A DNA stretch of 64,000 nucleotides from assembly GCA_000696115.1 (NCBI GenBank), contig JJOH01000003.1, positions 186,001 to 250,000 on the forward strand. The letters are read 5' to 3'. Position 1 is the stretch's first letter. Each line of letters begins with the position of its first letter. The position numbers and the translations under genes are program-made. Under the pieces are notes generated by a model. That model did not search any database, was not told where the DNA came from, and was given only the letters and a program-made list of their open reading frames with translations. The stretch comes from Streptomyces olindensis (lineage in GTDB: Bacteria; Actinomycetota; Actinomycetes; Streptomycetales; Streptomycetaceae). Positions 33,447 to 36,910 of this stretch are shown one piece after another.

Positions 33447-33490
33447 GCATGCTCCAACTCTACCTAGCCCTAAGTAGAGTTGGAGCATGC
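33447..33490. promoter_or_regulatory. Perfect 17-base inverted repeat covering the PadR start codon
   Basis: Arms 33447-33463 and 33474-33490 are exact complements with a 10-base loop. The downstream arm runs through the ATG of the PadR gene (33487). As DNA it is a good operator for a dimeric regulator, and as RNA it would hide the start codon in a hairpin. The centre is AT-rich (CTAGCCCTAA). Confidence 0.8.
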
Positions 33491-33831
33491 CTCACGAGCC
33501 GTCGAGTCCACGGATGACGCTGCCGACCCAGTTGGTGCTGCGCGCGTTCCTGGAGGAGCCCACCGAAGAGTTGTACGGGCTGGAGGTCTGCGCCAGAGCC
33601 CAGCTGGCCAGCGGCACGATCCACCCGATCCTGGCCCGCCTGGAGTCCGTCGGCTGGCTGGTGTCCCGCTGGGAGGAGGCGGATCCGCACGAGCAGGGCC
33701 GCCCCCGGCGGCGTTACTACCGACTCAGCCCGGACGGCTGCGTATCGGCCAGGGCCGCACTGGCCCGCGCCACGGCCGACAGGAACGCGCTCGGCGTACT
33801 CCGGCCCGGCCTGGCCGGAGGCGCCGGCTGA
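33487..33831 (+). CDS. PadR-family transcriptional regulator
   Basis: 114 residues. Winged helix with TQLVLRAFLEEPTEELYG, the recognition region LASGTIHPILARLESVGWL and the wing PRRRYYRLSPDG. It lacks the long C-terminal coiled coil of some PadR members. The start codon lies inside a perfect inverted repeat, so tight autorepression is likely. Its stop overlaps the start of the next gene (TGATG), so the two are coupled. Confidence 0.87.
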   Translation: MPHEPSSPRMTLPTQLVLRAFLEEPTEELYGLEVCARAQLASGTIHPILARLESVGWLVSRWEEADPHEQGRPRRRYYRLSPDGCVSARAALARATADRNALGVLRPGLAGGAG

Positions 33832-34532
33832 TGAACGCGGAGCCCCTTCCCGGCGGTCCGAGCCTCGCCGCCGAGTCCCCCTACAGTCACGCGGTCAGCC
33901 TGGCAGGCGACCTCGTCCGCACGCTCGCCCGCGCCGACATCCGCGCCAAGGACCTGGCGCACGGCCTCGCCCTTCGGCGCTCCAGGGTCATCAGCAGCGA
34001 CATCGACCTGGCGCTCGACCTGGCCGAGGCCGTCGGCAACCTCCATATCGCCGCCGTCCGGCTCCCGTCCGTGATCGACAGGCCCCGGGTCGTCGCGGCC
34101 CGCACCGCCTACCTGGTCAAGGGACTGGCCTACGCCTCCACGGCCGCCGGCGAACTCGCGCTGCAACTCGACCGCGTCGACCCGCGCGGGGGTGCTCAGG
34201 CCCGCCGCGTCGCCCAGGCCTGCGGCGAAGCGACGACGCTCCTCGACCGGTTCACCACCGCCCTGCACAGTCCGGGAGAGGCCGCCGCCCCCCTCACCAC
34301 TCGGCGCCGGGTCAGTCCGGCGGCGCAGTGGCTCATCGGCTCCGCGGCGCTCGTCCTCCCGGCCGCGGACCGGGCGCGGTACGCCGAGGAGTGGCGCGGC
34401 GAGCTGTGGGACCTCGCGGCGGAGCCGCGCCGCCGCCACCTCCTGCACGCCCTCCGCGTCGCGTTCCACGCCTGGTCCACGCGCCGGGCGGTCCTGTCCG
34501 CGCGGCGCGACGACGACGGCGGGGAGTGGTGA
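33831..34532 (+). CDS. Hypothetical protein coupled to PadR
   Basis: 233 residues, mostly helical, no signal peptide. The N-terminal 130 residues are amphipathic helices (LVRTLARADIRAKDLAHGLA, LDLAEAVGNLHIAAVRLPSV). After a proline-rich link comes one hydrophobic stretch (AAQWLIGSAALVLPAADR) and a YAEEWRGELWDLA motif often seen in actinobacterial membrane proteins next to PadR genes. In such pairs PadR controls the downstream partner. Function not recognised. Confidence 0.7.
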   Translation: MNAEPLPGGPSLAAESPYSHAVSLAGDLVRTLARADIRAKDLAHGLALRRSRVISSDIDLALDLAEAVGNLHIAAVRLPSVIDRPRVVAARTAYLVKGLAYASTAAGELALQLDRVDPRGGAQARRVAQACGEATTLLDRFTTALHSPGEAAAPLTTRRRVSPAAQWLIGSAALVLPAADRARYAEEWRGELWDLAAEPRRRHLLHALRVAFHAWSTRRAVLSARRDDDGGEW

Positions 34533-34582
34533 GAGGAGGGAGTGGGGCGGGGAGGCTCGGATGCGGTCGCCCGGCGCGCGCC

Positions 34583-34808
34583 GCGGCGGGACGGCGGGCA
34601 CCTCGATCGCGTTCTCGATGTCCGTCGCGGTCATCCTGAACTCCTCCGGGTACGCCTGGCGCGTGGTGCGGCGGGCGGGCTCGGTGGCGCGCCAGGTGTA
34701 GAGGCACCGCTCGCACTGGCGGACCAGCCACACGTCCGCCACCGGCGAGGCGGCGAGCGTCCGAACGGCGTCGAAGGCACAGCGGGGGCACACGGCGTCG
34801 GTGGTCAT
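34583..34808 (-). pseudogene. vdcD: VdcD-like small subunit of a hydroxyarylic acid decarboxylase, no proper stop
   Basis: From ATG 34808 (AAGGAG five bases upstream) the first 75 residues match the small D subunit of vanillate/4-hydroxybenzoate decarboxylases: a zinc ribbon CPRC and CERC, then LYTWRATEPARRTTRQAYPE and FRMTATDIENAIEVPAVPP. The normal stop is missing, and the frame stays open to 33717, antisense to the neighbouring gene. The upstream vdcC homologue is only a remnant, so the product has no partner here. I call it decaying, although the domain itself is intact. Confidence 0.75.
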
Positions 34809-34839
34809 GAGAGCTCCTTGAGTGGGCCAGGGGGGCGGG

Positions 34840-34990
34840 TCACCGGGCAGAGGCGGCGCGCAGCTGACGGAGCCTGGCCGTCCAGTCCCGGACCTCCGGC
34901 AGGTCCCGCACGTGCGTCGAGAAGGTGCCCCGCGCATCGGGGAAGCGGGTTCGACGACGGAGAGGTTGGGGACGACGACCACGTCCTGGA
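34840..34990 (-). pseudogene. vdcC: 3' remnant of a VdcC-like UbiD-family decarboxylase
   Basis: On the minus strand a segment reading DVVVVPNLSVVEP is followed, in another frame and after a gap of roughly two dozen residues, by DARGTFSTHVRDLPEV and WTARLRQLRAASAR with a stop at 34840. This is the C-terminal end of vanillate decarboxylase subunit C (UbiD family). More than 400 residues upstream are missing. The break at about 34990 coincides with the broken 5' end of the divergent AraC gene. Confidence 0.75.
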
Positions 34991-35686
34991 CTTCGTCGAG
35001 CACGAGCTGCCGCCCGGCGCCTGGCTGTGGATCCGCCCCGGGCAGGTGCAGCGGTTCGGACGGGACCCGCCGGCCGCCGAGGGGACGATCGTGGTGTTCC
35101 GGCCGGGGTTCCTGCCGCCCGCGACCCTCGCCGCCGGCGGCATGGACCCGCCGTACCGGCAGGCGCCGGTGCTGCCCTCGGGGCAGGACGCGCGGGCGCT
35201 GGGACTGGGCCTGGAACACCTGGCGTTCGAGTACGCCGCGCTGACCTCGCTGCCGCTCGCCGCGCACGTCGAGGTGCTCCGGCACCTGGTGTCCGTGCTG
35301 GTCCTGCGCCTGGCCAAGGTGACGGGCGGGTCCGCCGCACCGGCCCCCGCGACGGAGGTGTTCCGGCGCCTGTCCGACGCGGTGGAGCGCGACCACCGGG
35401 TGACGCGGCGGGTGGAGGACTACGCCGCCGCCCTGGGCTACAGCCCCCGCACCCTGTCCCGCGCGAGCCTGGCGGTCACCGGGATGAGCGCGAAGAAGTA
35501 CATCGACGAGCGGGTCCTGCTGGAGGCGAAGCGCCTGCTGCTGCACACCGACCGCGCGGCGAAGGACGTGGCCGCGGAGCTGGGGTATTCGCCGATCCCA
35601 GCGACTTCACCAAGTTCTTCCGGCTGCGGACGGGCACGACGCCCGGAGCGTTCCGGGCGGGAACTCCCCGCGCCGGCAGCACCTGA
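34990..35686 (+). pseudogene. AraC-family regulator, 5'-truncated and frameshifted
   Basis: The cupin-like sensor domain starts abruptly with EHELPPGAWLWIRPGQVQRF, lacking its first part. The DNA-binding domain follows (VEDYAAALGYSPRTLSRASL, KKYIDERVLLEAKRLLLHTD). At about 35596 the frame slips between AELGYS and DPSDFTKFFRLRTG, which lies in another frame and ends at 35686. Both HTH motifs are recognisable, but no intact protein can be made. It is divergent from the vdc remnants and was probably their regulator. Confidence 0.82.
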
Positions 35687-35692
35687 ACGCCC

Positions 35693-36730
35693 CTACGCGG
35701 GCGGCCGGTCCGTGGTGCGGCGCGCCACCAGCGTGGGGGAGAGCCTGACCTGGACCGAGCGCCTGCCGCGGTCCGCGATGCGCTCCAGGAGCAGCCGGGC
35801 GGCGTTCCGGCCGATCTCCTGGCCCGCCTGGTCGACGCTGGTCAGGGAGATCTGACCGAGCGCGGCGAAGGTGGTGTTGTCGTAGCCCGCCACCGAGAGG
35901 TCGCCGGGCACCGAGAGGCCGGCCTCGGCGACCGCCTCCAGCACGCCCATGGCGACGATGTCCGCGCCCGCGAAGACGGCCGTGGGCCGGTGGGGGCGCG
36001 CGAGCAGCTGCTTCGCGCCCTCGTAACCGCCCTGCTGGGTGTAGCTGGTGGAGACGACGTCGATCTCCCCGTCCAGGCCGAGGTCCCGCATGGCGCGCCG
36101 GTAGCCGTCGGCGCGCTGGGCGTTCGGCATCTCGGTGGCGCGCGTCGGGTCGGTCTCGTGGTGCTCGATGTGGGCGATCCGGCGGTGGCCGAGCTCCGCG
36201 AGGTGACGGACCACCAGGGCCGCGCCCGCGCGGTCGTCGTCGGCGACGGTGTCGTACACCGGGGAGTGCCCGTGGCGGCCGACCACGACGGTCGGCACGG
36301 CGGAGGCGACGTGTTCGAGACGGTCGCGCGGTGACACGGGGGCGACGAGGACGAGGCCGTCCATGCCACGGTCGATCATGGCGTCGGTGACGCGGACCTC
36401 CTCCTTCTCGCCGTTGCCGCCGGGGCCGAGCAGGACCTGGTAGTCGGTGCCCTCCAGGCAGCCGGTGACGCCGTCGAGGATCTCGGGGAAGAACGGGTTG
36501 CGGATGTCGGGCAGCATCACGCCGATCGTGTACGTCTGGCCGCGCAGCCCCCGGGCGGCCGCCAGCGGCCGGTAGCCCAGCTCGTCGATCGCCCGCCGCA
36601 CCTTGGCCCGCATCTCCGGGCTCGCCCCGTAGGCGTTGCGCAGCACCTTGGAGACGGCGGTGGTCGACACGTTGGCGTGCCGGGCCACGTCGACGATGGT
36701 GACGCGACGGGGTGCTGCGGGCGGCTCCAT
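35693..36730 (-). CDS. LacI-family repressor of locus (b)
   Basis: 345 residues from ATG 36730 with GGAGGAA upstream. Helix-turn-helix VTIVDVARHANVSTTAVSKV, hinge AARGLRGQ, effector domain starting TYTIGVMLPDIRNPFFPEIL. It is divergent from the rhamnoside importer, and three AACGTT-centred palindromes lie between the two starts. It probably represses the importer and the GH78 gene in the absence of a rhamnose-containing sugar. Confidence 0.9.
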   Translation of the reverse strand: MEPPAAPRRVTIVDVARHANVSTTAVSKVLRNAYGASPEMRAKVRRAIDELGYRPLAAARGLRGQTYTIGVMLPDIRNPFFPEILDGVTGCLEGTDYQVLLGPGGNGEKEEVRVTDAMIDRGMDGLVLVAPVSPRDRLEHVASAVPTVVVGRHGHSPVYDTVADDDRAGAALVVRHLAELGHRRIAHIEHHETDPTRATEMPNAQRADGYRRAMRDLGLDGEIDVVSTSYTQQGGYEGAKQLLARPHRPTAVFAGADIVAMGVLEAVAEAGLSVPGDLSVAGYDNTTFAALGQISLTSVDQAGQEIGRNAARLLLERIADRGRRSVQVRLSPTLVARRTTDRPPA

Positions 36731-36750
36731 GCGGCTTCCTCCGGGTGCCG

Positions 36751-36766
36751 TGGGCAACGTTGGCGA
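36751..36766. promoter_or_regulatory. LacI-type operator near the locus (b) regulator
   Basis: TGGGCAACGTTGGCGA, an AACGTT-centred imperfect palindrome 21 bases upstream of the LacI start. Confidence 0.6.
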
Positions 36767-36910
36767 GAAGTGTACGGATCCAGCCCGGACCGGGTAAGGG
36801 GCCTCCCCCACTACGTCTCCGGGCGAGGCGGCCGCAGCGCGTGACGACAGTGCAGCGTGCGCGACATCTTGACGCCCCGTGGAGGGCTCTCTAGGGTCTG
36901 GCCCACCCTA

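Follow-up and report, generated by a model that had tools for sequence, protein, structure and literature searches.

The window analysed here is a 64,000-nucleotide stretch of Streptomyces olindensis DNA (G000:C3:186001-250000), taken from a draft genome of 9.37 Mb in 112 contigs. Near its middle lie parts of genes that elsewhere form a regulated decarboxylase operon. Specifically, a sequence resembling VdcD, a small zinc-ribbon protein, is preceded on the minus strand by the end of a vdcC gene, which abuts the back part of a plus-strand araC gene. The four features below were delimited largely by comparison with L068, the intact vdc locus of genome G221.

34579-34808, minus strand: vdcD remnant with a whole zinc-ribbon domain and its native stop codon missing (NF041205 profile, alignment with L068, list of open reading frames)
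34840-34987, minus strand: 3′ remnant of vdcC, spanning codon 408 to the stop codon (blastn and alignment with L068)
34986-34988, no strand: deletion joint between the vdcC and araC remnants (alignment with L068, joint-pattern search)
34987-35686, plus strand: araC 3′ remnant, beginning within codon 66, with its first whole codon at 34989 (blastn, HTH_18, alignment)

The remnants and their joint

The VdcD domain starts at 34808, ends near 34579 and matches all of the NF041205 model (positions 1-70 of 70; 108.8 bits, cut-off 30). Its translation retains the motifs CPRC and CERC, whose four cysteines are predicted to bind zinc, and the sequence AAGGAG is preserved upstream of the start codon. 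Since most of vdcD is undamaged and this upstream sequence is kept, a chance promoter might still drive some expression. A first-pass annotation had called the VdcD-like domain intact, which holds for the domain but not for the gene. Having no stop codon of its own, the open frame continues to 33717, antisense to a gene at 33837-34532. The missing stop, together with the end of similarity to G221 at window position 34579, marks the 3′ end of vdcD as a second breakpoint, and the relic was probably cut back here by another rearrangement.

Both of the other remnants are damaged internally, as the same annotation had reported. The vdcC tail has a net out-of-frame loss of 61 bp at 34942-34944, which is 43 bp from the joint. 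The in-frame part of araC matches HTH_18 (3.1e-15; profile positions 1-57 of 80), and a 2-nt frameshift near 35587 falls inside the helix-turn-helix part. The remnant does not carry in one frame the ligand-binding and helix-turn-helix parts that define an AraC-family regulator. An araC-like gene elsewhere in the genome (G000:C95) was considered as a moved copy and rejected, being a relative of 41.5% with no vdc match in the surrounding 14 kb.

On one side the relic is flanked by a PadR-like regulator gene and then a gene with no match to any family (33487-34532), and on the other by a LacI regulator gene and sugar ABC transporter genes. The LacI gene is whole in the window (35693-36811), and only its C-terminal part lies by araC in G221 (L068 8996-9190). 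The presence of this C-terminal part beside araC in G221 too supports orthology of the two loci. No vdc gene was found in the 11-12 kb surrounding the LacI loci of G343, G001, G204, G377, G391 and G278, the six genomes to which this comparison applies; 21 further LacI loci and additional matches lie outside it.

Three blastn segments relate the window to L068. Positions 34579-34941 (363 window bases) correspond to L068 5661-6032 with 84.7% nucleotide identity, positions 34945-34987 correspond to L068 6097-6139 with 90.7% identity, and positions 34987-35881 (895 window bases) correspond to L068 8305-9190 with 85.4% identity. The joined remnants are not a chance juxtaposition, because both flanks align within a single locus (at 84.7% and 85.4% identity). 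Relative to L068, blastn and alignment place an absence of 2,166 bp at window position 34987. The missing G221-like stretch comprises vdcC codons 1-407, the entire vdcB gene, the divergent promoter region and araC codons 1-65 (plus 1-2 bases), and in the alignment a single T at 34987 fits both sides, giving a 1-nt overlap. Because G221 is only about 85% identical on both sides, 2,166 bp is the length in G221 rather than in the true ancestor. Thus the locus has the marks of a deletion relic, with both sides aligning to an intact locus, the middle missing and further lesions in the reading frames. These results refine the first-pass annotation, which had recognized that a VdcC-like gene survives only as a tail upstream of VdcD, had set the junction with a front-less AraC gene at about 34990 and had proposed one deletion behind both truncated 5′ ends; the 2,166 bp loss suffices for both.

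A draft assembly might instead have misjoined a locus that is intact in the strain, by an error of assembly or sequencing. The joint, however, lies at position 220,987 of a contig of 493,026 bases, away from the contig ends, and the joined genes come from a single locus, keep its native order and orientation and are short of its inner part alone. Furthermore, profile searches of the assembly identified neither VdcC nor VdcB at another site, a search with the DNA of intact vdcBC (two best candidates scored per genome) recovered from this genome solely an 82-bp vdcC tail, and the additional lesions flanking the joint on either side fit decay. We therefore regard an artefact as extremely improbable.

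Intact and damaged vdc loci in the genus

The comparison with relatives that the first-pass annotation had proposed was carried out on 392 genomes of the genus. VdcD occurs at at least 50 places in at least 47 of these genomes, and above the cut-off in at least 45; these counts are lower bounds, with up to 14 candidates scored per genome. Among 14 control genomes, the VdcD model found a match in one, Bacillus subtilis. The 50 places found were classified with four reference proteins, and 39 carry a complete araC-vdcB-vdcC-vdcD set with araC divergent from vdcBCD. A locus was called complete when each gene stood in one frame without a stop; coverage was at least 88.7% for VdcD, 99.1% for VdcC, 91.3% for VdcB and 97.9% for AraC. 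The G221 locus and L088, L089 and L090, which belong to named Streptomyces species, have the genes, order and orientation of the operon in the window. In G221 the 2,166 bp missing from the window are present, araC has 295 codons and VdcC 477, and the flank beyond vdcD differs from that of the window.

Of 66 named loci recovered with the araC remnant as query, 32 carry the complete four-gene locus by this criterion, for example those of S. longisporoflavus JCM 4396 (L088) and S. cellulosae NRRL B-2687 (L090); among the rest are distant relatives of AraC and loci at contig ends. At L129, L131 and L132, an AraC-like gene (45-47% identity) is divergent to a UbiX-like gene (75-76%) with VdcC absent from view. 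These contigs end about 0.1-0.6 kb from the UbiX gene, which indicates either a different operon or a contig edge.

Eight of the 50 places are damaged, namely the window itself (G000), G014, G069:C12, G069:C41, G170, G318, G372 and G240. They carry different lesions, and seven of them retain no whole vdcC, the exception being G069:C12. Finding vdcD in a genome scan is therefore not evidence of a decarboxylase. G069 has two vdc loci (L214 and L213), both damaged but differently, one being decayed throughout and the other having an internal loss in vdcB and no vdc-type araC. The search with intact vdcBC DNA added G165, where about 100 bp of vdcC remain and VdcD is absent. The survey was seeded on VdcD, and losses that took vdcD along are mostly unseen by it. 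Three other places fit neither class.

G287:C8: araC, vdcC and vdcD whole; vdcB absent
G213: vdcB, vdcC and vdcD present; no araC of the vdc-locus kind
G308: VdcD scoring under the cut-off (23.7 bits), with DNA that matches no intact locus

At the first of these (L188 3616-6434) the gap between araC and vdcC is only about 190 bp, and a complete second locus in the same genome (L187) could supply VdcB.

A conserved short arrangement in relatives, which the first-pass annotation had named as the counter-case, was not seen. The joint pattern without mismatch occurs only in the window's own genome among the 392, and the joint is absent from the 49 remaining VdcD places found. Allowing up to three mismatches, the pattern matches in 19 of 392 genomes and the same pattern read backwards, used as a control, in 7 of 392. 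The 19 other matches (18 genomes) carry two or three mismatches and none lies at a listed vdc place, and a short form shared with relatives was rejected.

The damaged locus of G014 (L036) resembles that of the window. It too has an araC 3′ part fused to part of vdcC, with vdcB and the promoter region gone and the VdcD domain whole; 1,734 bp are missing relative to L086, with a 3-nt overlap at the joint. In contrast to the window, vdcC is kept from about codon 185, only about the last half of araC remains, and vdcC has a further internal loss and a stop codon. Because G014 keeps vdcC sequence that the window lost and is without araC parts that the window keeps, neither locus derives from the other, and the G014 deletion is an independent event. 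Fusions of araC to vdcB are found in G170 (about 1,281 bp missing relative to L216) and G318 (about 967 bp missing relative to L195). The vdc operon is repeatedly lost in the genus, with independent losses in other species.

The four mapped deletions (G000, G014, G170 and G318) all cover the promoter region, for which the probability is 0.115 when each is given a random position in the G221 locus, from vdcD as far as the end on the araC side, a design in which both locus ends are kept by construction. This test used lengths of 2,165 bp for G000 and 1,731 bp for G014 (2,166 and 1,734 bp after correction for overlap) and left out G069:C41, where a loss in vdcB spares the promoter region, as well as G069:C12, G372 and G240. 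The coverage is within chance, and we do not claim a deletion hot spot across the araC-vdcB promoter. Recurrent negative selection on the operon, under which promoter-spanning deletions would be favoured for silencing regulator and enzyme together and VdcD would be spared for another role, appears improbable. Such selection might arise, for example, if the operon diverted vanillate to guaiacol or did harm when misregulated.

The joint in the window could also be the product of two or more overlapping or successive deletions. Overlapping deletions would look identical to one, a 61-bp net loss lies close by, and vdcD has a further breakpoint at its 3′ end; one event is nevertheless enough for the main joint, and no mapped damaged locus represents an intermediate that shares an endpoint. 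A multiple origin is therefore unlikely, if somewhat less so than the other alternatives considered here. From the observed arrangement, the mapped joint, the missing parts and the intact relatives, we infer a single deletion.

Decarboxylase genes in the rest of the genome

We found no second copy of the lost subunits. Only one UbiD match was found in the genome, on G000:C17; it corresponds to the menaquinone decarboxylase of TIGR03701 (656.7 bits, cut-off 495.9) and adjoins an MqnP-type prenyltransferase gene. The only UbiX match above the cut-off lies about 3 kb from this menaquinone UbiD gene, and a second match to the UbiX model, on C94, is weak (21.9 bits, cut-off 108.9). A backup decarboxylase was rejected, given that the UbiD match and the above-cut-off UbiX match are both in the menaquinone neighbourhood.

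At the vdc locus itself, the UbiD-type VdcC is without codons 1-407 and its tail is out of frame, and the UbiX-type VdcB that would provide prenylated FMN is absent. Because the only UbiD found is the menaquinone enzyme, the vdc decarboxylase has probably been lost, and judged from gene content the strain is probably without this activity. The earlier suggestion that a phenolic-acid decarboxylase had probably disappeared gains from the failure to find a second VdcC or VdcB in the genome; the enzyme is better named a non-oxidative vanillate/4-hydroxybenzoate decarboxylase of the UbiD type. The genome also encodes two proteins that match VanA_C above its cut-off and a PobA-like protein whose score of 520.6 bits falls short of the cut-off (538.7); these proteins may offer oxidative routes for the same acids.

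Age of the deletion and history of the operon

Pairwise comparison with G221 gives a dS of 0.35 and a dN/dS of 0.17 for vdcD (76 codons), and a dS of 0.33 and a dN/dS of 0.23 for the araC part (198 codons). These ratios indicate that most of the divergence between the window and G221 arose under selection. Changes were then assigned to branches by means of four intact loci (G201, G147, G359 and G161), dropping sites where these disagree. The window branch has 3 synonymous and 10 nonsynonymous changes and the G221 branch 12 and 4 (Fisher p 0.009); for araC alone the corresponding numbers are 3 and 7 against 10 and 2 (p 0.027), and all of these counts are small. A nonsynonymous excess on the window branch is as expected if selection was relaxed late. 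The deletion postdates the split from the G221 lineage.

These data also bear on the idea that the short arrangement is a conserved working unit, in which a small VdcD-type protein and a shortened AraC have taken on a new role. In its favour, VdcD retains its whole domain with both cysteine pairs, and matches spanning the full VdcD model also survive at damaged loci elsewhere, for example in G014 and G318. This survival is partly an artefact of a survey seeded on VdcD, however, and the joint occurs at a vdc locus in no other of the 392 genomes. Moreover, the front of araC is gone and its DNA-binding part carries a frameshift, the vdcD stop is missing, and amino acid changes are in excess on the window branch. 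A working unit of this kind is highly improbable.

We conclude that the locus is very probably a deletion relic of a regulated vdc operon, produced by one loss of about 2.2 kb after the split from G221 and by subsequent decay. The ancestor would have had araC and, divergent from it, vdcB (a UbiX-type flavin prenyltransferase), vdcC (the UbiD-type catalytic subunit) and vdcD (the zinc-ribbon accessory subunit), an operon for the regulated non-oxidative decarboxylation of hydroxyarylic acids. A single 2.2-kb deletion, sealed by end joining with almost no shared sequence, would have had its endpoints at codon 66 of araC and codon 408 of vdcC and would have taken with it the promoter region and vdcB between them. 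The remainder would have been without a catalytic subunit or the native promoter region and with only part of the regulator. The 61-bp loss in the vdcC tail, the araC frameshift, the loss of the vdcD stop and the excess of amino acid changes would represent later decay.

The vdcBCD genes of Streptomyces sp. D7 are a described intact operon for non-oxidative vanillate decarboxylation. Clustered B, C and D genes are reported as predicted in two Saharan Streptomyces (PMC8317367). In the VdcCD systems of Sedimentibacter hydroxybenzoicus and Bacillus subtilis, VdcD is reported to be a small accessory subunit of the zinc-ribbon type, with four conserved cysteines that bind zinc, and VdcC and VdcD are both required for activity (PMC8379154). 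VdcC is present in those systems, whereas in the window the catalytic subunit is gone. Among the matches listed for the open-access literature (titles and the starts of abstracts) we found no report of vdc relics in Streptomyces, and we found none in the open-access literature of a vanillate decarboxylase pseudogene.

The loss is of an ordinary kind, a deletion that reduced a known operon to a relic. Its value lies in being well mapped, with an intact relative whose neighbourhood is partly shared, a joint placed to the base and no backup copy found in the genome. The strain is predicted to be unable to convert vanillate to guaiacol, or 4-hydroxybenzoate to phenol, by the UbiD route. Of mild interest beyond this strain is the repeated loss of the vdc operon.
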